A stretch of 64,000 bases of DNA from contig NZ_CP113865.1 of assembly GCF_026810225.1 (NCBI RefSeq), positions 783,001 through 847,000 of the forward strand, in the 5' to 3' direction. The notes below the pieces were generated by a model. It was given only the letters and a program-made list of their open reading frames with translations, was not told where the DNA came from and searched no databases. The position numbers were made by a program, and so were the translations under genes. Positions 25,931 through 58,659 of the stretch are shown here, piece after piece. The stretch's first letter is position 1. Each line of letters starts with the position of its first letter. Source of the stretch: Caldicellulosiruptor morganii (GTDB lineage Bacteria > Bacillota > Thermoanaerobacteria > Caldicellulosiruptorales > Caldicellulosiruptoraceae).

Positions 25931-25951
25931 AATAACATCAAAATAATTAAC

Positions 25952-26106
25952 AATGGTGGCTGAATGCATGGGGCTTGTTTTGTAAAATTTGCTCCATGCA
26001 GCGGGAGAACCGACATTTAAGTGGGGTGAATCGGCAGGCTTTTGCTTGCCGTAGGGATGTCCTTCTTGTCCCGAACCCGTCAGCTAATCCCGTAAGCCCG
26101 AAGAAG
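25952..26106 (+). promoter_or_regulatory. ydaO/yuaA-type c-di-AMP riboswitch
   Basis: The leader has the conserved core of the ydaO aptamer: GCGGGAGAACCGAC near 26000, TGGGGTGAATCGG near 26022, a variable hairpin (GGCAGGCTTTTGCTTGCC), and the closing CCCGAACCCGTCAGCTAA followed by CCCGTAAGC. This class binds cyclic di-AMP and usually represses wall-hydrolase and osmolyte genes when the ligand is high. The next gene is an NlpC/P60 hydrolase, the classic target. There is no separate long terminator; the RBS follows within 15 bases, so control could be at translation or by a short hairpin at the end. Confidence 0.92.
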
Positions 26107-26120
26107 AAGGGAGTTTTTGT

Positions 26121-27071
26121 ATGAATTTTAAAGCTTTATTTGCAACACTTTTGCTGGCTCTTTTCTTATCTACTGGCACGACAGTTTTTGCAAAAACAGC
26201 ACAGGCTACAGCCACAATCAATATTAGAAGTAGCCCTTCTACTTCTGCAAAGATAGTGGGAGTTTTTCCAAAAGGCTTTAAAGCTCAGGTTATATCAACG
26301 TCTGGTGAATGGACCAAGATTTCATATGATGGTGTTGTTGGTTATGTTAAAACTGATTACATAATGATCACAAATGATAACAGCAAGGCAAATTCCAAAA
26401 AGGCATTGTCAACTTCAGATCAGGTTTTTTATCAAACGGCTGTTGTTTTAAAAGACAATGCAAGACTTAGAAGTGATAAGTCAACATCCTCAAAAATAGT
26501 AAAGACTTTATCAAAAGGCAGTAAAGTATATGTTCTGTCAAGGGAGCAAAACGGATGGATAAAGGTGAAAACTTCTGATGGTGTTATCGGTTATATGGCA
26601 TATTATCTTTTGAAAATAAACGGAGCATCTTCTTCAAAAACTGTGTCACGTGGCGGATATGATAGAGAAGATAAGATAAATTACAATGGGAGCTTGGCTG
26701 ATAGAATAATAGGATTTGCCAAGAACTTTCTGGGGATACGATATCGGTATGGTGGTTCATCTCCTTCAACAGGCTTTGACTGTTCAGGGTTTGTGCAGTA
26801 TGTGTTTAGAAATTTTGGGATTCACTTAGAGAGAACAGCAGCTGACATGGCAGCATCAAACGGTGTGAGAATTTCACCCGATGAGTTAAGACCCGGAGAT
26901 TTGGTATTTTTTGATACAGACGGTGGAAGAAACTATATAAACCATGTGGGCATTTATATTGGAAATGGAATGTATATTCATGCATCGAGTGCAAGAAGGT
27001 GTGTAACAATCTCAGACCTTACCTCAAAGTATGGCACGTCGTTTATGATGGCAAAAAGAGTAATAAGGTAA
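26121..27071 (+). CDS. Secreted SH3b-SH3b-NlpC/P60 peptidoglycan hydrolase
   Basis: Exported wall endopeptidase, 316 aa. Order: signal sequence (FKALFATLLLALFLSTGTTV), bacterial SH3 domain about 27-90 (ATINIRSSPSTSAKIVGVFP), second SH3 domain about 112-165 (ARLRSDKSTSSKIVKTLSKG), then NlpC/P60 about 190-316 with catalytic Cys in GFDCSGFVQYVFRNFG and His in NHVGIYIGNGMYIHASS. Such enzymes cut the D-Glu to diamino-acid bond of the peptide stem. ATG 26121 follows AAGAAGGGA. The c-di-AMP riboswitch upstream ties expression to wall stress or turgor. A strong bidirectional terminator follows two bases after the stop. Confidence 0.96.
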   Translation: MNFKALFATLLLALFLSTGTTVFAKTAQATATINIRSSPSTSAKIVGVFPKGFKAQVISTSGEWTKISYDGVVGYVKTDYIMITNDNSKANSKKALSTSDQVFYQTAVVLKDNARLRSDKSTSSKIVKTLSKGSKVYVLSREQNGWIKVKTSDGVIGYMAYYLLKINGASSSKTVSRGGYDREDKINYNGSLADRIIGFAKNFLGIRYRYGGSSPSTGFDCSGFVQYVFRNFGIHLERTAADMAASNGVRISPDELRPGDLVFFDTDGGRNYINHVGIYIGNGMYIHASSARRCVTISDLTSKYGTSFMMAKRVIR

Positions 27072-43518: not shown

Positions 43519-43593
43519 GATAACATAAAGGATTTGAACAAGAGTTTGAACTTTAGTTTATCGTTCAAAAATAATTATAGCCTTTATGTTATC
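43519..43593. repeat. Inverted repeat overlapping the end of the cyclase gene
   Basis: GATAACATAAAGG (43519-43531) and CCTTTATGTTATC (43581-43593) pair exactly; TTTGAAC..GTTCAAA extends the pairing inward. It covers the last codon and stop of the minus-strand cyclase gene. It could be that gene's transcription-end hairpin or the end of a small repeat element. Confidence 0.5.
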
Positions 43594-46500
43594 ATAAGAG
43601 ATTTTTGATTTTTAATATTTCTAAGTTGATGCTAACTTCGTCATCAAAATGCTTGCTTGTTTTTTCTGCTAACTCAATGAAATACTTTGCCCGGGTTTTC
43701 TCTGATATATTTATATAAACCTTTGCCAGTATCACGTAGCACTTTGCAAGCTCTAATAAAAAACCACTTTCTTCACAGAGTTTAATTGCATCAGAAAGAC
43801 AGTCTATAGCTTCATTGTACTTTTCAGCACCAAACATTATTTCGCTTTTTTTTCTAAGTGATTCTATCTGTTTGAATGTAATTTTGTTTGATAATTCAAG
43901 TGCCAGCTCTATTTCTTTTTCTGCCTGCGAAAGATTATTTATTTGCAAAAGGAAATCTGCTTTTGTCAGATGATATTCATACTCAATGTCTGTATCTTTA
44001 ACCTCTTCAATCAGCAATTCTGATTTGCTCAGAAAATCTTCGCATGCTTTAAAGTTTTTCATGAGGCTCAAAACTTTTGCAAGGTATATATAACCCAGTA
44101 TCTTTTCTGCTGTAAACATTTTCTCCTCGCTGATATTAAGTGATGCTAAAAACAGTTCATAAGCATTAAAAAACAAGCCTTTTTCAATATAAACCTCGCC
44201 AATGTTTAGCAGACACAAACATTCTTCATACAACAAACTCCATTTTTTAGAATTCTCATAAGCCTGGTTTAGATACTCATATGCTTTTTTGAGCAATCCT
44301 TTCTTGGCATGAATTATTCCTAAGTTTATCAAAATATCAATTTGTGTGTGTTTGTCATAAATTTTTTTGCTGTCTTCAAAAGCTGATAACAAATTATGAA
44401 TTGCCTTATTTGTGTTTCCGATCTGAAAATATAGAATGCCAAAGTTTGCAGTAGTTTTGCTTCGCAAAAATATGTTGTTGACTCTGGTTGCAAGTCCTCT
44501 TGCTTTTTGCAGAAAGCTTACCGCTTTTTTAATGTTGCCATGATATCTAAAAAGGGAATAAGAAGTAATGTTTAGAGCCTTGATTAAAATTTCAATTTCG
44601 CTTTCAAGTGGGGAAAGGGATTCAATCTCCTTGAGGATTTCATCAATTTCCAGTGATGCTGTGTAGCTGTGATAAAGGCTTTTTAAATATATAAGTGTTA
44701 AATATAGAGGATGATTTTTGCCAATTTGCTTTTCAAGTTGGACAATAATTTCACGGGCATTGTCAAAGTCAGCAGTTAAAATAAAACATTCACACATATG
44801 ACATTTAATAAAAAGCTGTTTTTCAGCATCTGCGTGTTCATACAATATCTGCAAATAACTTATTGCATCAGTGTAATTACCCATTTGTTTTTCTAAAATT
44901 GAGAGTTCCTCAAGTGCCTCTACAAAAAAACGATGTTTGGTTTGATTGCATTTAGTTAATATTTCAAGTGCAAGTTTGAAGTATTTTACAGAATATCTGT
45001 ATAGAAGTTGCCTTTTGTAATTGTGTGCAAGCAAAATACAGTATTTAGTGGCATTTAGAAAGTCTTCGGCTTCCATATAGTGATATATTAAAAGGTCGAA
45101 GTAATTGTTTATAGCATCTTTAAATAGTTTTTCAATTGAATTTGCAATTCTGTAATGAATGTTTGCTTTTATTTTTTTGGGTATAGATTTTAAAATTGCT
45201 TCGAAGACAAAATTATTTGTAAATTCAAAGATTTTATCTGCTGTGGTGTTTTGATACACAATGTCAACAAGTTTGATAAAATTATTCTTTGTAAGAATAA
45301 GAATGATATCATTTTCTGGTTTTGAAGGTTTTAAAATATCTGATATAACCCTGAAACTAAATCTTTTTCCATATACCGCTGCAATTTTTAAAAACTCAAT
45401 CAGCTCTTTATCAAATTTAGAAATTCTATGTTCAGTAATTCTATCAAATATTTCCAAAGAATTTGAATTTTCAAAGTTTATAAGATATAGAATGTTATTT
45501 CTGACAGATAATTTATTACTTATCTGAAGCCATTTGCAAATTTCCTGAATATACGCAATTTTACCATCAGAAATATCGGATACAAGCTCTGTAAAATCCC
45601 TATCAACACTATTTACATTAAAAACAGCTTTTAGTATTTCTTCGATTTTTTCAGGTGAAAGTTTTTGTATATAAATTGTTTCTTGAAAATTTAGTTTGAT
45701 GTTTTCATTGTCTGATGTTATGACAAATATGCCTTTGTCAGGCGCTAAATTGGCTTTAATGTATTCAATTACCTTGATTGATTCAATATCAGCAAACTGA
45801 ATATCGTCTATTAAAAAGATAGAAAAACTGGATGATAAAAATGTATCGAAAAAGAGAAAAGTGCTTTGTATAATTTCTCGTTCAATATCTTCTGGCGTCA
45901 TTGAAGAAAAAATGTACCTGAATTCTTCCTCAGGATTCAGTTGCAGAATAACAGAGAGAAAATTTAAACAGTTTGACTTTTTCTCAAAATCATCTTTGAA
46001 CAAAAAATCAAGAAATGAAACCAATCGATGGTATTTTATACCTGGTACATCTTCAGGGCTTATATTCAAAATTCTGCAGATTATCTGAGATATCAATAAA
46101 TAGGGGCGAGAATAAATATTGGGGCTGCATTTGATATAATAAGTTCTTATACTGTTTGAAAGCAAATGTGAGGACAATCTTTCTAACAATGTTGTTTTGC
46201 CAGTACCACCCGGTCCGACCAGAAGTATACCATTTTCCTTTTTTGATGCAATCAAATTGAACAATTTTGATAAATATTGATCCTGGATATTTGAAAATGG
46301 TTCCAAAAAGTTGGTTTCACTTATAACTTTTAAAGGCATATAGCACCTTATTGGCTCGCTTTTATTTTTCACATATATTTCTTTAGCTTCAGAATACAGG
46401 ATGGAATCAAAGGTTTCTCTGTAGATACTTTCTGACACATAAATACCATTTTCAGGCGCGACAGATTGCAATCTTTGAGCCACATTGACCACATCACCTA

Positions 46501-47050
46501 TGACAGTGTAGTCTTTTTCGTAGTATCCGCCCACTTTACCGACAGCCACTATTCCATAGTTTATACCTATCCTGATTGAAATTTTCAAATTTCTTTCTTC
46601 AGAAAACTCATTGCAAAGCTTTAACATCTCAAGAGCACACAGAACAGCACGCTTTGGATCATCCAGATGAGAGGTCTTTGTCCCAAAAAGTATCATTACA
46701 CAATCGCCTATGAATTTGTCTATACTTCCCTCAAAATAATAAACAGGTTTTAAAATAAATTCAAAAAACTCGTTTATAAGGTCATTTACTCTGTCAGGAC
46801 TTGTCTTTTCAGAAAGCCTTGTGAATCCTGATATGTCTGCAAACATCACAGCTACTTTTTTAAGTTCTTCAACTGTTTGGCGCACATCTCCACTTTTCTT
46901 TACAAATTCACCACAATTTGGACAAAAATTAACAAAAGCAGGAAGCAGCCAACTGCACGAAGGGCAGACATCTTTGAATTTCATACCACAGAATATACAC
47001 CTGTCAGCATCCAATGAGTATATTTTATTTCCGCAGTTATAACAGATCAT
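43592..47050 (-). CDS. Zinc-ribbon class III nucleotide cyclase with AAA ATPase and TPR regions
   Basis: A 1152-aa cytoplasmic signalling protein. Order: two zinc ribbons (MICYNCGNKI, CIFCGMKF, CPSCSWLLP, CPNCGEFV) about 1-50; class III adenylate/guanylate cyclase about 65-240 (VAVMFADISGFTRLSE and FIGDCVMILFG with metal Asp residues, YTVIGDVVNVAQRLQSVAPE); AAA/NACHT-like ATPase from about 275 (Walker A LVGPGGTGKTTLLERL, Walker B FSIFLIDDIQFAD); then a long helical part with TPR-like repeats to the end. Such proteins sense through TPRs and make cAMP. ATG 47050 is chosen because the zinc ribbon starts there; the TTG at 47101 has no RBS. It is divergent from the c-di-GMP riboswitch. Confidence 0.88.
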   Translation of the reverse strand: MICYNCGNKIYSLDADRCIFCGMKFKDVCPSCSWLLPAFVNFCPNCGEFVKKSGDVRQTVEELKKVAVMFADISGFTRLSEKTSPDRVNDLINEFFEFILKPVYYFEGSIDKFIGDCVMILFGTKTSHLDDPKRAVLCALEMLKLCNEFSEERNLKISIRIGINYGIVAVGKVGGYYEKDYTVIGDVVNVAQRLQSVAPENGIYVSESIYRETFDSILYSEAKEIYVKNKSEPIRCYMPLKVISETNFLEPFSNIQDQYLSKLFNLIASKKENGILLVGPGGTGKTTLLERLSSHLLSNSIRTYYIKCSPNIYSRPYLLISQIICRILNISPEDVPGIKYHRLVSFLDFLFKDDFEKKSNCLNFLSVILQLNPEEEFRYIFSSMTPEDIEREIIQSTFLFFDTFLSSSFSIFLIDDIQFADIESIKVIEYIKANLAPDKGIFVITSDNENIKLNFQETIYIQKLSPEKIEEILKAVFNVNSVDRDFTELVSDISDGKIAYIQEICKWLQISNKLSVRNNILYLINFENSNSLEIFDRITEHRISKFDKELIEFLKIAAVYGKRFSFRVISDILKPSKPENDIILILTKNNFIKLVDIVYQNTTADKIFEFTNNFVFEAILKSIPKKIKANIHYRIANSIEKLFKDAINNYFDLLIYHYMEAEDFLNATKYCILLAHNYKRQLLYRYSVKYFKLALEILTKCNQTKHRFFVEALEELSILEKQMGNYTDAISYLQILYEHADAEKQLFIKCHMCECFILTADFDNAREIIVQLEKQIGKNHPLYLTLIYLKSLYHSYTASLEIDEILKEIESLSPLESEIEILIKALNITSYSLFRYHGNIKKAVSFLQKARGLATRVNNIFLRSKTTANFGILYFQIGNTNKAIHNLLSAFEDSKKIYDKHTQIDILINLGIIHAKKGLLKKAYEYLNQAYENSKKWSLLYEECLCLLNIGEVYIEKGLFFNAYELFLASLNISEEKMFTAEKILGYIYLAKVLSLMKNFKACEDFLSKSELLIEEVKDTDIEYEYHLTKADFLLQINNLSQAEKEIELALELSNKITFKQIESLRKKSEIMFGAEKYNEAIDCLSDAIKLCEESGFLLELAKCYVILAKVYINISEKTRAKYFIELAEKTSKHFDDEVSINLEILKIKNLL

Positions 47051-47194
47051 ATTTATCCACAGCCTCAAAAAATTTTTTATAAAACCTCTTGAAATTTTCA
47101 AAATTTGTGCGATAATATAATTGTAAAAAGTCGATATACAAATATTATATCATGAAAATTGTATTTCAAAAAACAAAAAAATAAAAAGTGCAGA

Positions 47195-47297
47195 GCATAT
47201 GTCGAAAAAGGCAAACCTGTCGAAAGACAGGGGCGCAAAGCCATGGGCCTGTCGGAAGAGAAGCTTCCTATGGTCGCCAGGTTGCCGAAACATATGC
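47195..47297 (+). ncRNA. Cyclic di-GMP-I riboswitch aptamer (GEMM-I)
   Basis: The aptamer is closed by GCATATG (47195-47201) with CATATGC (47291-47297). Conserved parts follow in order: AAGGCAAACC, the P2 stem CCTGTC-GAAA-GACAGG with a GNRA tetraloop, GGCGCAAAGCC, GGGCCTG, a second hairpin with TATGGTC and the closing GCCAGGTTGCCGAAA. These are the hallmarks of the GEMM-I class that binds c-di-GMP. A terminator lies 50 bases downstream and a small exported protein after that. A diguanylate cyclase gene lies less than 1 kb away. Confidence 0.95.
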
Positions 47298-47347
47298 CGA
47301 AGGTTTCTGTGTGAAAAGCATGAGAGTTTGTGTTTTACCTTTGGCAA

Positions 47348-47383
47348 AAAAGGCACCTGGCAGATGTCAGGTGCCTTTTAGTT
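47348..47383 (+). terminator. Riboswitch expression-platform terminator
   Basis: AAAAGGCACCTG (47348-47359) pairs with CAGGTGCCTTTT (47368-47379). The aptamer's own 3' segment CCAGGTTGCC (47277-47286) can instead pair with GGCACCTGG (47352-47360) with one bulged T. That makes it a credible antiterminator: ligand binding would lock it in the aptamer and let the terminator form, an OFF switch. Confidence 0.75.
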
Positions 47384-47391
47384 GTGGAAAT

Positions 47392-47412
47392 GAGCAGGAA
47401 TTTTTCCTGCTC
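47392..47412 (+). promoter_or_regulatory. Perfect 9-bp hairpin just before the small gene's RBS
   Basis: GAGCAGGAA, loop TTT, TTCCTGCTC. It lies between the riboswitch terminator and the RBS (GAGAGGTG), with no U-run after it. It may stabilise the mRNA 5' end or mark a processing site. Confidence 0.45.
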
Positions 47413-47437
47413 ACAAAGAAAGAGAGGTGTTTTTAAA

Positions 47438-47821
47438 ATGAAACCTCTGTTTTCTAAAAAGTGGTTGATGTTAGCAGTCATAATGTTTATTTTTTCAACA
47501 GCTTTTGGCAGTTTGGCTTTTGCAAAAGACGAAACTCCAGTTCAATTCAGTGGCAGTTTTACTGTTACAAATGAAGGAGGAAAATTCCAGGTAGGTTTTG
47601 TACAGATTGATTTCAAAAAAGACTCACTGCCTGATGGAATAGACTCTATCACATTCAATGCACAGATATATGCAGAAAATGGAGTTGTATATATTGAATT
47701 TTCACCTGATGCTAAATTCAAGAAGGATGTTCATCTGAAATGTGAAGGTTACGAAGGTTACATCTACGACAGGTCTGCGGGGATTAATATTTATGTTAAG
47801 CTCAAAAAAACAGCAGCTTAA
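47438..47821 (+). CDS. Small exported protein under c-di-GMP riboswitch control
   Basis: A 127-aa secreted protein. A signal peptide (KKWLMLAVIMFIFSTAFGSL ending ..AFA, cut before KDETPV) precedes a mature part of about 95 residues rich in beta-forming alternation (VQFSGSFTVTNEGGKFQVGF, GIDSITFNAQIYAENGVVYI, AGINIYVKLKKTAA). No lipobox, wall-sorting signal or SLH motif is seen. I do not recognise a family. ATG 47438 follows AGAGAGGTG; the longer frame from 47330 runs through the terminator and is not real. Being the only gene behind the riboswitch, it is the direct c-di-GMP output here; surface attachment or matrix roles are typical of such targets, but that is inference. Confidence 0.88.
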   Translation: MKPLFSKKWLMLAVIMFIFSTAFGSLAFAKDETPVQFSGSFTVTNEGGKFQVGFVQIDFKKDSLPDGIDSITFNAQIYAENGVVYIEFSPDAKFKKDVHLKCEGYEGYIYDRSAGINIYVKLKKTAA

Positions 47822-47908
47822 AACAGACCATTTTTCAAGGTTTGCATGGGCAAGATAATCCCTCTATCCTCATAACCCCTCGAACTCCTTAAAAATAATA
47901 AATTTTTT

Positions 47909-47946
47909 GCCCCTCTTTTAAATTTTAAGAGGGGCTGCTTTTTTTA
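47909..47946 (+). terminator. Terminator after the small exported protein
   Basis: GCCCCTCTT (47909-47917) pairs with AAGAGGGGC (47927-47935), followed by TGCTTTTTTT. It overlaps the last codons of the convergent diguanylate cyclase gene. Confidence 0.8.
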
Positions 47947-49145
47947 TCTCTTTTCATCCTGTACATTTTTTCATCAGCTAATTTAATTAAATCTTCAGAG
48001 GTTAAATCCAATTCTGGAGAATATTCGGCAAAGCCATAGCTTATACTTATTTTATATGGCTTTGCTTCTGAGGAATTAAACTTTTCAATTTTTTCCTGAA
48101 TTCTTGACAGAACAGTATTTGCTTCTTTTACTGTAGCTTTTGAAAGAACCAGAACAAATTCATCTCCGCCAAACCTGAATGCGATATCATAACTTCTGAT
48201 GCTTTCCTTTAAAATTTGACAGAAATTCTTCAAAAGATCATCACCGGTTTGGTGTCCAAAAGTGTCGTTTACTGATTTCAAACCGTCAACATCTATAAAG
48301 CATACAACGAAATGTGACTCGTTCATTTTTGAAAGCTGAATTTGCTTTTCCAGATAAACCATTCCTTCATTTCTTGTAAAAAGTCCTGTTAGGGCATCCA
48401 GAGTGGCAAACTTCTTGAATTCTTCCTGTTCAATTAAAATATCTTCGCTGAGGTTGGCAATTACCTGTTTCATGGAATTAAACAGGCTAATTAAAGCATA
48501 CCTTGTATTTGCGATATTCTTTTCAATCCTCTGATAAAGATGTATTCTTTCGATTAGAAGTGATGCCTGGGATGCCAGAGACAGAATAATTTCTTCATCT
48601 TCTTTTGTGTACTCTAAAATATTCTGCTTTATATTTTCTGAAGAAAGTTTTATTTCTTTGTTTTTCTTTTTATTAACAAGCTGGAGAACTCCAATGACAT
48701 TTCCCTGATAATCAATCATTGGAATTGCCATTGTGTTTACTGTAACATAGTTCAAAGAATCATCAAAAAGTCTAAATTGTGAAAATTGAGTTTTTTGCAG
48801 GTTCTGCACATTATTTATTGTTACAGGTATAGCATTTTTTGCAACAAATCCTGCTATGCTGTTTTCATCTACCGGGATTCTGTATCCTGCAAAGTCGAAA
48901 TTGACAGAAAAGTTTTTAGCAAATGTAATTACAAGGTACTTTTTTCCCTCAAACTCCTTTACAACATAGAGTGTACCACCATCGCTGTTTGTAATATCAA
49001 TGCTTTCGTTTAGAATCATCTCAAGTATGGAGTCAATATTCTTTTCACGCGAAATTGCAATCCCAATTTTACTCAGTTTCCTTATAAGTTTTTTTAAGTC
49101 ATGTGATACAATTTGTTCATTCATCCTCTTTATACCTTCCTTCAA
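47925..49145 (-). CDS. GAF-GGDEF diguanylate cyclase
   Basis: A 406-aa cytoplasmic enzyme that should make c-di-GMP from two GTP. The N-terminal GAF domain spans about 20-200 (SDGGTLYVVKEFEGKKYLVI, YVTVNTMAIPMIDYQGNVIG), followed by a helical linker and GGDEF about 240-400 (TLDALTGLFTRNEG, FIDVDGLKSVNDTFGHQTGD, active site FRFGGDEFVLVLS). The inhibitory I-site RxxD is present as RSYD, five residues before GGDEF, so feedback inhibition is expected. Start 49145 (MKEGIKRM) overlaps the metallo-beta-lactamase gene by four bases; ATG 49124 is an alternative. It is the last gene of a three-gene operon and convergent with the riboswitch-controlled gene, a likely sensor of its product. Confidence 0.93.
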   Translation of the reverse strand: MKEGIKRMNEQIVSHDLKKLIRKLSKIGIAISREKNIDSILEMILNESIDITNSDGGTLYVVKEFEGKKYLVITFAKNFSVNFDFAGYRIPVDENSIAGFVAKNAIPVTINNVQNLQKTQFSQFRLFDDSLNYVTVNTMAIPMIDYQGNVIGVLQLVNKKKNKEIKLSSENIKQNILEYTKEDEEIILSLASQASLLIERIHLYQRIEKNIANTRYALISLFNSMKQVIANLSEDILIEQEEFKKFATLDALTGLFTRNEGMVYLEKQIQLSKMNESHFVVCFIDVDGLKSVNDTFGHQTGDDLLKNFCQILKESIRSYDIAFRFGGDEFVLVLSKATVKEANTVLSRIQEKIEKFNSSEAKPYKISISYGFAEYSPELDLTSEDLIKLADEKMYRMKRDKKSSPS

Positions 49146-49861
49146 ATCTGTATTTGTTCTGGAATTTGGAATCCCAAACTTAAAGCAAGCTTAAAATCAA
49201 AATTGCTGTCCAAATGGATGCAAAATACGCGGTTTCTCTTTTCTGAAGGAATAAGTAAGCTCAGTTCCTCAAGTGACAGATGAGGTCCTGTGCCATTGTG
49301 ATTTTCCGAGCAGGTATCTTGATATAAAAATTTTATCTCATCTTTTAAGAACCTATCAATTATAATTTCATCAATTGTTTTTGCATCGCCACTGTAAAAA
49401 AAGTTACTTTCTTCTGTTTCAATTAAATACCCAAAACAGGGAATGTCCGTAACATGAATTTGTCTTACAGGTATTATCGTGATTTTATCTTCGTAGATTA
49501 AACTATTTTTTAATGGTATCAAGTCAAATGTTTTTTCAGCAACACCAATGCTGCTTAAAAACGAGAGAATAAGAGATTCTTCCGGGAAGAGGATTCTTGC
49601 CTTTTTGTTAAGTTCATAAAAACAGTAAAGAATAAGATGCCCCAGGGTTGCGACATGGTCCGGGTGAGTGTGTGTAATTAAAATATTGATATTTGGATAC
49701 TTTTGAAGAAGTTTCATTTTATAGAGGGTTTCGAATATTCCCTCTCCACAATCTATTAAAAACAGACTATCTTCGTGTTCAAAGTAAGCAGAGGTGTTAT
49801 TGAAATTTGTATTAAACGCACTTCCAATACCCAGAAAGTTAAGTACAGGGTGGTTTTTCAT
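49142..49861 (-). CDS. Metallo-beta-lactamase-fold hydrolase, RNase Z / cyclic-nucleotide phosphodiesterase-like
   Basis: A 239-aa cytoplasmic MBL-fold protein. The zinc motif HTHPDHVATLGHLI is intact (HxHxDH), with FLGIGSAFNTNF at the start, LFLIDCGEGIFETL, a later metal Asp in FFYSGDAKTIDEII and a C-terminal His in VFCIHLDSNF. This arrangement matches the RNase Z/ElaC group and class II cyclic-nucleotide phosphodiesterases. It is not the housekeeping tRNase Z by length (about 300) and lacks the exosite arm. Its place between two GAF/GGDEF genes, with four-base overlaps on both sides, suggests a link to nucleotide signalling; that is inference. Confidence 0.82.
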   Translation of the reverse strand: MKNHPVLNFLGIGSAFNTNFNNTSAYFEHEDSLFLIDCGEGIFETLYKMKLLQKYPNINILITHTHPDHVATLGHLILYCFYELNKKARILFPEESLILSFLSSIGVAEKTFDLIPLKNSLIYEDKITIIPVRQIHVTDIPCFGYLIETEESNFFYSGDAKTIDEIIIDRFLKDEIKFLYQDTCSENHNGTGPHLSLEELSLLIPSEKRNRVFCIHLDSNFDFKLALSLGFQIPEQIQI

Positions 49862-51033
49862 TTTAGAGTTTCACCATCGCTTTCGTTCACCTTTTTTTGA
49901 AGGAAACAGAGTATTTCTTCGATACTTTTTTCTTCATCGGGTTTGAGTTCATAAAAACTCCATGTGAAATTCAATGTGGAAACTGATATATCATTTAAAC
50001 GAAGTTTTTCTAAAGTCTTTCTTTCTATTCTCTTTGCAATCATACCCGCTTTTATGATATCCACATTGTGAAAAAAAATAACATATTCATCTTCTTTAAC
50101 TTTTACAGGAATATCATAAGGTCTTATTTCAGTAGATATTACTTCGTGCAAAGTATTAACAATTTTAGTGTCAGTATCTTTGTTTTTTATATAAGCTATG
50201 GTGGTGATTGTTTCGGTAATCTTTGTAAGCTCATATTCTTTTTTGAAAAGTTCAATTCCTTCTTTGAGTGAATACAGCTTTTCCTTATTCTCAATCTGCA
50301 AAGCCTCTATAAATTTTTGTTGACCATTAATCAAAATATCATTTAAAGTAGAAATGGACTTTTTAATTGACTCAAACACATTGTATAGCATTTTCTGGGT
50401 ATTGGATATGGAAAGTTCATTTTTTTCATAGGTTCTGAATCTGTCAATAATAAGCCCCAGTAGAGCAGCAACAGCCAGTACAATTTTGATGTCCGTTTCT
50501 GTATAATTTATTGTAAGAAGTGAGGCATTGTTTTCGTCAATTTTTATACTGGGTTTTGCTTTTTTGTTAATTACCTGAACTACTCCTAAAAGGTCATTTT
50601 CAAAGTCGAATACAGGTACAGAAATAGTGTTGATTGTGACATAATGCAGGCTTTTATCAAAGAACTTGAATTGTCTGAACTCGTGATTTTCGGGAAGGTT
50701 CAGAGTGTCACTTATAACAACAGGTTTTTTATGTAAAGCCGTGTATCCACACAGGCTAATTGCAGAGATTGGAATTGAATATCCCAGATAAAACTCAAAA
50801 TTAACAGACAGGTTTTTTGTTGCTTTTATAACCAGTTTTTCCTCCTTATCCACTACTTCTTTTAGATAAACTGTAGCACCGTCGCTTCCAGTCAAATTTA
50901 TGCAGGTATCAACTGCTAAAGCAAAAATCTCATCCAAATCTTTTTCTGTTGATGCATTTATGATAAAGCTGCTGAATTGTTCAATGGTATTTTTTAATCT
51001 TGTAATTTGTTCATATGCTTCAAACATGCTCAT
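49858..51033 (-). CDS. GAF protein with a degenerate GGDEF domain that keeps the I-site
   Basis: A 391-aa paralogue of the cyclase two genes downstream. The GAF domain (SDGATVYLKEVVDKEEKLVI, YVTINTISVPVFDFENDLLG) is clearly related, as is the helical linker. In the C-terminal domain the active site is KEDEY instead of GGDEF, and the usual FDxDxFKxxND strand is absent, so it should not make c-di-GMP. An RxxD motif (RPYD) is kept exactly five residues before it, as in IRPYDIPVKVKEDEYVIFF. That fits a c-di-GMP receptor or a regulatory partner of the active cyclase. Start ATG 51033 (MSMFEAYEQ) or 51027. First gene of the operon. Confidence 0.87.
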   Translation of the reverse strand: MSMFEAYEQITRLKNTIEQFSSFIINASTEKDLDEIFALAVDTCINLTGSDGATVYLKEVVDKEEKLVIKATKNLSVNFEFYLGYSIPISAISLCGYTALHKKPVVISDTLNLPENHEFRQFKFFDKSLHYVTINTISVPVFDFENDLLGVVQVINKKAKPSIKIDENNASLLTINYTETDIKIVLAVAALLGLIIDRFRTYEKNELSISNTQKMLYNVFESIKKSISTLNDILINGQQKFIEALQIENKEKLYSLKEGIELFKKEYELTKITETITTIAYIKNKDTDTKIVNTLHEVISTEIRPYDIPVKVKEDEYVIFFHNVDIIKAGMIAKRIERKTLEKLRLNDISVSTLNFTWSFYELKPDEEKSIEEILCFLQKKVNESDGETLK

Positions 51034-51220
51034 TTCACCATTAACCTTAAGTTGTAGAATTCTTTAGAAAAATTATCTCAAAAATCTGCCTTCCTTTCAA
51101 TGCAAAGCAGAATACAAATTTACTTAAATTTGTAACAATATCATAATGTAAATTACATATATATTGGCTATAATGTTAATATGTAAAAATCAATATATTA
51201 GAAAGGAGTTCGAGAAAAAG

Positions 51221-52948
51221 ATGAAAAAAAGGAGTTTTAAACTACTGACAGGTCTACTGGTAATGCTGTTTATCTTTAATCTATTTAACCTTGTCTCGTT
51301 TTCTCAGGAACAATCGACACCAATCTTTTCTGACCTTCCTCAGAATCACTGGGCTTACAATGCTGTAAAGTTTATGGTTGAAAGAGGAATTATAACAGGA
51401 TATCCAGATGGTACTTTCAGACCGGACAATCCTGTGACACGTGCTGAATTTGCAAGAATCATGGTGATTGCATTGAACCTTCCATTCAAAGTGACAGATA
51501 ATCCTTCATTCAAAGATGTCCCCAGAGATCACTGGGCTTATCCATACGTTGAAACCGCCAAATACTTTTTAACAGGTTTTAGAACTTCCAGTGGTGACTA
51601 TTTTAAACCATCAGATTATGCAGTGAGAGAAGATATGGCAGTTGCCCTTGTTAAGGCAAAAGGGTTGCAAAATGAAAATGTTGATGTAAATATTTTGAAC
51701 AATTACATTGACAGAGAACAGATATCAAAAAACCTAACAAAATATGTCGCAATTGCTATTGCAAAAGGTATTATGGTGGGAAGTCCTGTTCCCAATTCGA
51801 ATCAGCTCAAGTTTGAACCGCAAGGGATTTTAACGCGTGCTCAAGCAGCTATGCTTTTGTACAATGTGATTTCGACTCAGTCTAATGAGGAAAAAGTTAC
51901 TTATGATGACAGTTCATCTACAGGCACTAATCAACAGTATAATTACGCTGCTCCAAATGTTAGTGGATATACAAAGGGTGATAAAGTTGTGCTTGTATGG
52001 AATAAGATAAACGACAGAAGATTGAAGGGCTATGCGATAGTAGTGTCAAAAAATAACAGCCAGCCTGTATATCCACAGGACGGTTACTTAAAAATACTTG
52101 GCAATAAAGATGCTACGTATATAGAGATTGGTGTAAATTCAAAATATAACGGTGGTGACGTTGGAGCATATATAAAGAGCGGGGAAGAATATTATTTTGG
52201 TGTTACGGCAATCTACGAAGGCAATGTTTATGTAAAAGGGAATGCTGTAAGACTCAAGGTGCCTGTAATACCTGATTATTACGAAAAGCCTTCTGTTAAG
52301 TATGAGTATAAAGATAATAAATTCTTATTGAGCTGGCAGAAGATAGATGATTCACGCCTTGTCGGGTACAGGGTGGTTATATCAAAAAAGAATAAGAAAC
52401 CTAAATATCCTGAAAGTGGTTACCTTGTCTTCATCAATGATAGAAGTACAACTCAAATGGTGATAGACAATACAATACCTTATAAAGGTGGAGACTTTGG
52501 TGAATATCTAAAAGATGGAGAGGAGTATTATTTCAGTGTCACAGCACAGTATCAGGATAGGCTTGTTGCTGGTAATAGCGTAAAAGCTGAGTTTTATTCA
52601 AATTTGGAGATAAAAGCTTTGAGGCCCAAGCTTCAAGCGAAGACAATCAAATATTTTGGAAACTGGTATATAAACTTGAAATGGGACAAAATTAATAACG
52701 AGAAATTGCAGGGATATAAAGTAGTTGTATCTGACAAAAATTCAGCGCCCGACTACAATAAGGATGGAATTGTTGCAATTATCACAGACAAAAATATTAC
52801 ATCAATAAATATAAGAGCAAAAGACAAATATTTTCTAAATGGTGAATATAAGGAGCTGAAAAAAGGTCAGTATTATTACTTTACAGTATATGCCGTTTAT
52901 ACAGATAAAATAGTTGGTGGAAATGTGATAAGAGAAAAAATTCCATGA
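51221..52948 (+). CDS. S-layer-homology (SLH) protein with three fibronectin-III-like repeats
   Basis: A 575-aa cell-surface protein. Signal peptide (SFKLLTGLLVMLFIFNLFNL), then SLH motifs at about 32-75 (FSDLPQNHWAYNAVKFMVER and ITGYPDGTFRPDNPVTRAEF), about 94-140 (FKDVPRDHWAYPYVETAKYF) and about 150-215, which bind secondary wall polymers. After a Ser/Thr-rich hinge come three repeats of about 110 residues (VVLVWNKINDRRLKGYAIVV; FLLSWQKIDDSRLVGYRVVI; INLKWDKINNEKLQGYKVVV), each with a G(E/Q)xYYFxVTA end, a FnIII-like pattern. ATG 51221 follows GAAAGGAG. It is divergent from the GGDEF operon. No catalytic domain is seen, so it is probably structural or adhesive. Confidence 0.93.
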   Translation: MKKRSFKLLTGLLVMLFIFNLFNLVSFSQEQSTPIFSDLPQNHWAYNAVKFMVERGIITGYPDGTFRPDNPVTRAEFARIMVIALNLPFKVTDNPSFKDVPRDHWAYPYVETAKYFLTGFRTSSGDYFKPSDYAVREDMAVALVKAKGLQNENVDVNILNNYIDREQISKNLTKYVAIAIAKGIMVGSPVPNSNQLKFEPQGILTRAQAAMLLYNVISTQSNEEKVTYDDSSSTGTNQQYNYAAPNVSGYTKGDKVVLVWNKINDRRLKGYAIVVSKNNSQPVYPQDGYLKILGNKDATYIEIGVNSKYNGGDVGAYIKSGEEYYFGVTAIYEGNVYVKGNAVRLKVPVIPDYYEKPSVKYEYKDNKFLLSWQKIDDSRLVGYRVVISKKNKKPKYPESGYLVFINDRSTTQMVIDNTIPYKGGDFGEYLKDGEEYYFSVTAQYQDRLVAGNSVKAEFYSNLEIKALRPKLQAKTIKYFGNWYINLKWDKINNEKLQGYKVVVSDKNSAPDYNKDGIVAIITDKNITSINIRAKDKYFLNGEYKELKKGQYYYFTVYAVYTDKIVGGNVIREKIP

Positions 52949-57606: not shown

Positions 57607-58659
57607 TCAATAATTTATGACATCAATAATTTCTCTTTTTTGATCCTGGGCAAGGTCTATGAAGTAGGGGGTGAGTACTGGCGGTCCTTCTTTTCGTGCA
57701 ACCACTTTGACAACAGGTCTTGTTTTGTTGAAGGGATTTTCTTCGTACACAATTGCAATCTCACCTGTGTTGAGAACAACAAAGCAGCCAACCGGATACG
57801 TTACTACCATCTTCAAAAACCTTTGAACAATCTCTTTATCAAACTGAATTCCGGCGTATTTCAAAAGATAATCAGCAGCCTTTGTGGGGACCACCTTTTT
57901 CTTGTAAACTCTGTCGGCAGTAAGAGCATCGTACACATCTGCAATTGCCACAATTCTTGCAAAAAGAGGAATCCTGTCACCTTTTAGTTTTAGCGGATAA
58001 CCCGACCCATCAAGCCTTTCATGGTGCAAGAGTGCCACCTCGGCAATCTGTTCTGTAACCCCATCCATATTTTTGACAATCTGATATCCATAAATTGTGT
58101 GTTTTTTCATCTCTTCAAACTCTTCGTCTGTAAGTTTTGCCGGTTTGTTCAGAATTTCTGGCGGAACTTTCATTTTACCAAAATCATGAAGCAAAGCTGC
58201 CAGTGCCAGATCTTCTATTTTTTTTCTGTCAAATCCCAGAAGCTTTCCTATTATTGCAGAGAAGATACTGACATCCACTGAGTGAAAGAATGTATAATTG
58301 TCCACATCTCTGAATCCCACAATTTTTAAAAATACATCCTCTTCCTTGATAATCTCGGTAACAATATCATTGACAATTTCACGGGCAACAAAAGGGTCAA
58401 CAACTTCACCTGCTTTTGCAGAAAGCATCAGATCTTGAATTGCTACAAATGTTTCATGGTAAATAACCTCTTCCTTTACGTAATCATTGGATATTTCATC
58501 TTCTACATAGACACTGTCGATGTTGTATTCTCTCAATTTTTCAATAAATGAAGGCTTTATAATAAATCCCTCGGGCAATAAAAGCTTACCGTTTTCGGTC
58601 AAAACATCTCTTGCAAGTTTCATGCCCTCTTGTAGCTCATCAACGCTGACTTTTCTCAT
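57607..58659 (-). CDS. HD-GYP domain c-di-GMP phosphodiesterase
   Basis: A 350-aa protein. The N-terminal part resembles DUF3391-type beta domain (VDELQEGMKLARDVLTENGK, LPEGFIIKPSFIEKLREYNI). The HD-GYP domain about 125-290 has the metal residues LLHDFGKMKVP, the HxxxG/HH pair in ALLHHERLDGSGYPLKL with the GYP signature and IVAIADVYDALTADRVYKK. C-terminal about 295-350 is a beta domain (YPVGCFVVLNTGEIAIVYEE). It should hydrolyse c-di-GMP. No sensory or membrane domain is visible. ATG 58659 follows AAAGGAGTAA. It lies within 10 kb of the cyclase and riboswitch, completing a synthesis-sensing-degradation set in one region. Confidence 0.93.
   Translation of the reverse strand: MRKVSVDELQEGMKLARDVLTENGKLLLPEGFIIKPSFIEKLREYNIDSVYVEDEISNDYVKEEVIYHETFVAIQDLMLSAKAGEVVDPFVAREIVNDIVTEIIKEEDVFLKIVGFRDVDNYTFFHSVDVSIFSAIIGKLLGFDRKKIEDLALAALLHDFGKMKVPPEILNKPAKLTDEEFEEMKKHTIYGYQIVKNMDGVTEQIAEVALLHHERLDGSGYPLKLKGDRIPLFARIVAIADVYDALTADRVYKKKVVPTKAADYLLKYAGIQFDKEIVQRFLKMVVTYPVGCFVVLNTGEIAIVYEENPFNKTRPVVKVVARKEGPPVLTPYFIDLAQDQKREIIDVINY

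Follow-up and report, generated by a model that had tools for sequence, protein, structure and literature searches.

Organization of the riboswitch locus

We analysed a 64,000-nucleotide stretch of the Caldicellulosiruptor morganii genome (hereafter the window, whose positions are used throughout), and within it a locus built around a GEMM-I riboswitch, the class that senses cyclic di-GMP (c-di-GMP). On the plus strand, the GEMM-I aptamer and its terminator are followed by a small gene for an exported protein and by a C-rich element that the initial annotation, made from the sequence letters alone, had overlooked. Convergent to these is an operon of three genes, which encode a GAF-GGDEF protein, an MBL-fold hydrolase and a second GAF protein, whose GGDEF domain is degenerate. 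A class III nucleotidyl cyclase gene diverges from the riboswitch on one side of the locus, and a gene for an SLH-Fn3 surface protein lies beyond the operon on the other.

The window genome is a single contig of 2.475 Mb. The sample comprised 12 genomes of the genus, a sister genus (G012) and a distant lineage (G094), among ~400 sampled genomes of the phylum; G036 is a contaminated bin with the same contig as G094. The order cyclase, GEMM-I, small gene and GGDEF-MBL-degenerate GGDEF operon is conserved across the genus. The locus is kept in 10 of the 11 other genus genomes and mostly kept in the sister genus, and is therefore not strain-specific. Exceptions concern the operon: G002 has no GGDEF gene, the GGDEF gene of G007 is split, and G012 lacks the degenerate paralogue. 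In the distant lineage a GAF-PAS-kinase gene occupies this place and there is no MBL gene.

The GEMM-I leader and its expression platform

The aptamer (47201-47290, plus strand) scored 83.5 bits against RF01051, far above the gathering score of 35, and 74.5 bits (E 8e-16) against RF03167; its P1 helix can be extended over 47195-47297. It was the sole match to RF01051 in the genome. The covariance-model score bears out the earlier assignment to GEMM-I. The ligand-contact nucleotides G20, A47 and C92 (Vc2 numbering) were present in the alignment (AGGC, CGCAAA, GCCG). The best match within the Rfam clan, the c-di-GMP-I-GGC variant (RF03167), was rejected because the position of A47 holds A and not G (CGCAAA versus CGCGAA). 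The aptamer is thus an ordinary GEMM-I and, by family membership, is assigned as a c-di-GMP sensor. In the sister genus, the aptamer (L016:1968-2053) carries A at the G20 position; A at this position is associated with recognition of cyclic GMP-AMP in GEMM-Ib. A promoter-like site for the riboswitch transcript (47089-47118, plus strand; TTGAAA and GATAAT with a spacing of 16 and a TG) is a consensus match only.

The intrinsic terminator previously ascribed to the aptamer was confirmed at 47352-47379 (plus strand; GGCACCUG...CAGGUGCC UUUU). Pairing analysis identified its 5′ arm (47352-47361) and the 3′ strand of the aptamer (GCCAGGUUGCC; 47276-47286, plus strand) as the two halves of an antiterminator. 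In all homologous leaders the terminator 5′ arm is complementary to the aptamer 3′ strand, GCCAGGYUGCC, and a variable hairpin brings the two together. Antiterminator and terminator are mutually exclusive in every homologue, and in 13 of 13 leaders the antiterminator was computed to be 7-13 kcal/mol more favourable than the ligand-free aptamer. GEMM-I copies elsewhere in the genus have three distinct terminators (GGCACCUGGC, GGCGUCUGGC and GGCAUCUGGC), each complementary to GCCAGGYUGCC; only 0-7 of 500 shuffles were equally good. The leader has, on good support from these pairings, the design of a classical transcriptional OFF switch, in which c-di-GMP is predicted to prevent completion of the transcript.

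The small exported gene

The gene following the terminator (47438-47821, plus strand) had been described as encoding a 127-amino-acid exported protein of unknown family. The open reading frame (ORF) is real and has no Pfam match, but its length is a product of frameshift, the proteins of relatives having ~139 amino acids. The window carries a run of seven A at 47804-47810, as against six in the relatives. The extra A puts the conserved C-terminus out of frame and shortens the protein; a profile search recovered the lost C-terminal part in the following frame, and the conserved frame would stop at 47856-47858. The run may be a true mutation, slippage or a sequencing error. Intact proteins end in ...QQLKTDHFSRFxWxR or a near variant, of which HFSR is retained in G012 and G094. 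Other breaks at the locus were seen in G011 and G007; together with the window frameshift they point to partial decay of the cluster in several strains.

Searches of Pfam and of PDB sequences found no family for the small protein. Its AlphaFold model is a confident beta-sandwich (pLDDT 86), and the top three PDB folds retrieved with it were all ZU5 (best E 0.008, probability 1.00, TM ~0.5). Because Pfam gave no ZU5 sequence-profile match, we call the protein ZU5-like only. The gene is present in 11 of the 12 genus genomes, in G012 and in G094 (and on the same contig in G036), and nowhere else among the sampled phylum genomes. A weak match in G020 was dropped after it disappeared in a profile search, and a genome-contig search returned no match from a collection from which near relatives are apparently left out.

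GEMM-I precedes the small gene in all 11 genus genomes that have it, in the sister genus and in the distant lineage. The association of riboswitch and small protein that had been noted is therefore real, and neither this association nor the conserved gene order refutes the initial interpretation by the conditions set for it. The further idea that the protein is the only output of the riboswitch was not supported, because G006, which lacks the gene, keeps the switch, the terminator and the C-rich element, and because a related motif upstream of the cellulase gene celA has no intervening ORF.

An invariant C-rich element at the 3′ end

The C-rich element AAUCCCUCUAUCCUCAUAACCCCUCGAACUCCU (AATCCCTCTATCCTCATAACCCCTCGAACTCCT; 47857-47889, plus strand) begins at the conserved stop codon of the small gene. 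It is present in one copy in each of the 12 genus genomes and is invariant in all of them at 33 of 33 nucleotides, versus 20 of the next 128. In contrast, more than half of the codons for invariant amino acids vary synonymously. The sister genus retains the element core AACCCCTCAAACTCCTT. On the 3′ side follows a terminator (47909-47945, plus strand) whose sequence diverges between genomes and whose hairpin and U-tract are kept. An Rfam search found no family for the element, and a scan of the contig collection, in which near relatives may be left out, with an 18-mer of the element gave one match, unrelated and likely due to chance. A separate RNA transcribed from an internal promoter at 47832 was rejected because neither the spacing nor the -10 box is conserved; a minus-strand mini-ORF across the element was rejected because its length is not conserved and it is missing in the celA motif.

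G006 no longer has the SLH-Fn3 gene, the GGDEF operon or the ORF. It keeps the aptamer, its terminator, a 13-nucleotide patch of the ORF (AGGUCUGCGGGGA; 47771-47783 in the window, plus strand), the C-rich element and the final terminator. The deletion may be recent, its flanks being 93% identical to relatives, and is thus supportive rather than decisive. The orphan GEMM-I of G006 (L132, G006:C1:930000-943800) stands directly after a type IV pilus operon, in place of the cyclase.

The patch is conserved at the nucleotide level and is predicted to pair with the element. Such pairing would suit an action in cis, in which the element works on its own mRNA by pairing of the 3′ untranslated region (3′-UTR) with the Shine-Dalgarno sequence or by protection of the 3′ end, as has a precedent in Staphylococcus aureus icaR (PMC3868564). 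However, the Shine-Dalgarno sequence of the small gene is variable and its pairing weak (-8 kcal/mol), the element outlives the ORF in G006, and no ORF intervenes at celA. We regard action in cis as quite improbable.

A second GEMM-I-associated element upstream of celA

Seven relatives (L094, L095, L096, L100, L103, L104 and L105) carry a GEMM-I 560-610 nucleotides upstream of celA, which encodes a GH9-CBM3-GH48 cellulase; this copy is absent from the window genome. Between GEMM-I and celA lies a sister C-rich motif, GCTATCCCCTAACCCCCTC, 129-167 nucleotides past the aptamer and >430 nucleotides before the ATG. The motif common to both loci, CTATCCYC(N)TAACCCC, was found in 19 copies in the 12 genomes and in none in a reversed control. 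All 19 copies are downstream of a GEMM-I and co-oriented with it, and in 19 of the 30 GEMM-I cases of the genus the downstream partner is a conserved C-rich RNA element. The constant partner of this subset of GEMM-I is thus the C-rich RNA and not a protein; the initial annotation had seen real parts and chosen the wrong constant.

These counts also bear on the notion that the element is a relic or a DNA site that serves replication, integration or the binding of a protein, with GEMM-I merely hitch-hiking. Invariance alone is no proof of RNA function, and the G006 deletion could be recent. Against this notion, the motif is shared by two different loci, always behind GEMM-I and in the same orientation, and is followed by a terminator-like hairpin that is not conserved in sequence at the small-gene locus. 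We consider a DNA site or relic very unlikely.

celA has promoter-like sequences of its own close to the gene, and in a start-site study of C. bescii the longest 5′ UTR among mapped carbohydrate operons was 329 bp. Together these suggest, though they do not prove, that the celA mRNA does not include GEMM-I. A pseudopilin-like gene near celA has a GEMM-I with an OFF-type platform 116-196 nucleotides ahead (L094:8712-8801, L100:2002-2091, L104:1714-1803 and others), and further copies lie ahead of an HD-domain gene (L099) and of an exported protein (L097, L098).

Predicted Shine-Dalgarno targets

The predicted first target of the element is the neighbouring SLH-Fn3 gene (51221-52948, plus strand). 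Its Shine-Dalgarno region (AAGGAGUUCGAG; 51203-51214, plus strand) is perfectly complementary to 47879-47890. This 12-bp Watson-Crick match was the second longest among 1409 start regions, drawn from two thirds (1.6 Mb) of the window genome. The SLH-Fn3 sites of relatives differ in sequence. Among the 10 genomes whose local gene set had an intact SLH-Fn3 gene, this site was the strongest of the set in 9 and the second strongest in the other; G004 was also run, but no intact SLH-Fn3 gene was called there. By energy, the site ranked in the top 0.1-3% for 7 variants. When the element was shuffled, 1 of 1000 shuffles did as well at the window site, and 1-13 of 1000 did so for four distinct variants in all. 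The Shine-Dalgarno region of celA has an 11-bp match in G001, G005 and G008, where 2 of 1409 were as strong.

Several results weigh against such targeting. In the window strain the SLH-Fn3 site ranked only 41st of 1409 by energy, and for the remaining variants 97-132 of 1000 shuffles did as well, the share being 10-13% in two variants. Pairing at celA was unremarkable in G003, G004, G007 and G011. Complementary sites of at least 11 bp numbered 4 genome-wide versus 1.2 expected, a marginal excess (p ~0.05), and base composition accounts for much of the predicted pairing. G006 keeps the element without its SLH-Fn3 neighbour, a close ortholog of which was looked for in that genome and not found. 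The ORF patch may also sequester part of the element. Because the target searches followed sight of the element, we treat the target claim as a hypothesis with moderate support.

When the genus was searched for GRGGGGTTRTG, further conserved candidates at start sites emerged, but no clean regulon. Start-site matches elsewhere in the window genome (L233:6978, minus strand; L263:8024 and 10125, plus strand; L168) include one of 13 bp ahead of an uncharacterised Ser/Asn-rich protein, the others preceding secreted-looking proteins; these strong matches are possible further targets.

The convergent operon and the divergent cyclase

The GAF-GGDEF gene (47925-49145, minus strand; likely start ATG 49124) encodes an active-looking diguanylate cyclase by its motifs: the GGDEF domain match was 4e-39, RSYD-x5-GGDEF is conserved, and both the GGDEF signature and the RxxD I-site are intact. 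The MBL-fold hydrolase (49142-49861, minus strand) has an intact HxHxDH motif, and its nearest solved relatives are 7fct and Apyc1-type phosphodiesterases. The third gene (49858-51033, minus strand) encodes a GAF protein 30-36% identical to the active cyclase; it has lost the GGDEF signature and keeps RxxD (RxYD) in 11 of 11 genomes, which fits a c-di-GMP receptor. All three proteins stand as first described, and the operon ends 103 nucleotides from the small ORF, in keeping with the claimed distance of less than 150 bases. Of the claimed four-base overlaps, that of the MBL and degenerate GGDEF genes (49858-49861) is real, whereas that of the GGDEF and MBL genes requires a start at TTG 49145; in relatives the start is the counterpart of ATG 49124, and a gap often separates the two genes.

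These parts had been read as a circuit in which the small protein is the output, the GGDEF protein makes c-di-GMP, the degenerate paralogue senses it through RxxD and the MBL protein breaks down a cyclic nucleotide or dinucleotide; the C-rich tail would be secondary. Such a circuit gains from synteny in the genus, partial in the sister genus, from the constant company of the small protein and GEMM-I even in the distant lineage, and from RxxD in the active cyclase and in every degenerate paralogue. It is weakened by the small gene itself: G006 has lost it and the copies of G011 and the window strain are broken, yet the C-rich element does not vary. The distant lineage, which has a GAF-PAS-kinase and no MBL gene, also counts against it. 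In addition, the riboswitch and small gene persist in G002, where the GGDEF gene is missing, and in G007, where it is split, which indicates that local c-di-GMP synthesis is not required. We judge the circuit rather unlikely. An HD-GYP phosphodiesterase at 57607 had been added to it; the HD domain is present, but the gene lies 6.6 kb away past unrelated genes and was rejected as a member because it belongs to a collinear backbone in 9 of 9 relatives checked.

The divergent class III cyclase (43592-47101, minus strand), which was missed in the initial annotation, has AAA/STAND and TPR regions and is of adenylate type by its residues. It adjoins GEMM-I in all loci with the small gene and is a steadier neighbour than GGDEF or MBL. 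The locus might join two messengers, the cyclase making cAMP, the MBL protein hydrolysing cyclic mononucleotides and GGDEF/GEMM-I reporting c-di-GMP. The adjacency in two lineages and the relation of the MBL protein to 7fct, and next to Apyc1-type cyclic-nucleotide phosphodiesterases, agree with this; the absence of MBL from the distant lineage, its solitary occurrence in G181 and the G in place of catalytic E74 of Apyc1 do not. We give such a junction little credence, although it is compatible with an OFF switch gating a C-rich RNA.

The MBL protein resembles Apyc1 in profile (8.8e-21), with a Pfam Apyc1 score of 35 bits, below the cut-off of 50; a true Apyc1 was rejected on account of the E74 replacement (SBSphiJ numbering). 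A Pycsar defence system was likewise rejected, since PycC matches were only to the generic cyclase domain. In comparison with L080-L089, the divergent cyclase falls with some relatives (~65% identity), the MBL and degenerate GGDEF proteins with a different set (64-72%), which points to recombination inside the locus. Elsewhere in the window, a c-di-AMP (ydaO) riboswitch at 25948-26113 (84.6 bits) lies closely upstream of the ORF at 26121.

A proposed c-di-GMP NOT gate

With a little less than even confidence, we propose that a c-di-GMP OFF switch gates a transcript carrying a C-rich anti-Shine-Dalgarno RNA whose first target is the neighbouring SLH-Fn3 gene. A single GEMM-I-gated transcript would contain the ORF of the small ZU5-like protein and then the ultraconserved C-rich end. 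At low c-di-GMP, the aptamer 3′ strand and the terminator 5′ arm would pair as antiterminator and the transcript would be completed; its C-rich tail, as a 3′-UTR-derived small RNA (sRNA) or within the mRNA, would cover the Shine-Dalgarno regions of targets, SLH-Fn3 first. At high c-di-GMP, the ligand would lock the aptamer, the terminator would form, the RNA would not be made and SLH-Fn3 would be released. The switch would thereby become a NOT gate that turns surface and attachment genes on. The aptamer, the exclusive pairing, the conservation and the strict association of the motif with GEMM-I are computational observations; the sign of regulation, the existence of the RNA and its pairing with targets we infer. 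Shine-Dalgarno action, with SLH-Fn3 first, is moderately supported as the most likely mechanism, and is unproven.

A second C-rich RNA under GEMM-I control would stand ahead of celA in cellulolytic relatives. A more doubtful extension is that Caldicellulosiruptor has a family of such gated sRNAs, through which c-di-GMP, by stopping the RNA, would turn on translation of SLH-Fn3 and, in cellulolytic species, of CelA. If true, the proposal would explain how an OFF switch raises attachment functions at high c-di-GMP, would couple attachment signalling directly to cellulase output, and would provide the celA region with a regulatory input, in a genus that serves for biomass conversion. According to a regulon study of C. 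bescii, no transcription factor is dedicated to the cellulase locus (PMC8579813). Biofilm formation in Caldicellulosiruptor is tracked by c-di-GMP (PMC4342205), so the prediction is testable in non-pathogenic strains.

Comparison with known systems

Receptors of the PelD/PopA type have a degenerate GGDEF domain, keep the I-site and bind c-di-GMP. The degenerate paralogue is similar in lacking the GGDEF signature and having RxxD; it differs as a GAF-GGDEF paralogue in an operon with an active sibling and an MBL enzyme, and is a candidate c-di-GMP receptor. The MBL protein shares the fold, HxHxDH and profile similarity with Apyc1 and class II MBL phosphodiesterases (PMC9117128), but has G in place of the catalytic E74 and is far nearer to the uncharacterised 7fct. 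The riboswitch agrees with RF01051 in aptamer fold, ligand-contact nucleotides and a terminator-based platform, and differs in the RNA element that is the conserved downstream partner in 19 of 30 cases in the genus. The element resembles the C-rich (UCCC) sRNAs of Gram-positive bacteria (RNAIII, RsaA and LhrC type) and the UCCCCUG of the icaR 3′-UTR in being C-rich near the 3′ end and complementary to Shine-Dalgarno sequences; unlike them, it is under direct riboswitch control, and there is no shared sequence family.

In the open literature searched, we found no example of a c-di-GMP riboswitch gating a regulatory RNA, although vitamin B12 cases are known. In Listeria Rli55 and in AspocR (PMC6794450), a vitamin B12 OFF riboswitch gates a regulatory RNA beside the controlled genes, so that the ligand turns the neighbours on. 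The system proposed here differs in its ligand, c-di-GMP, in a C-rich anti-Shine-Dalgarno RNA instead of a protein decoy or antisense RNA, and in the ORF carried at one of the loci. It shares with Rli55 and AspocR a conserved noncoding element downstream of the riboswitch on the same strand, an arrangement found for every copy of the motif.

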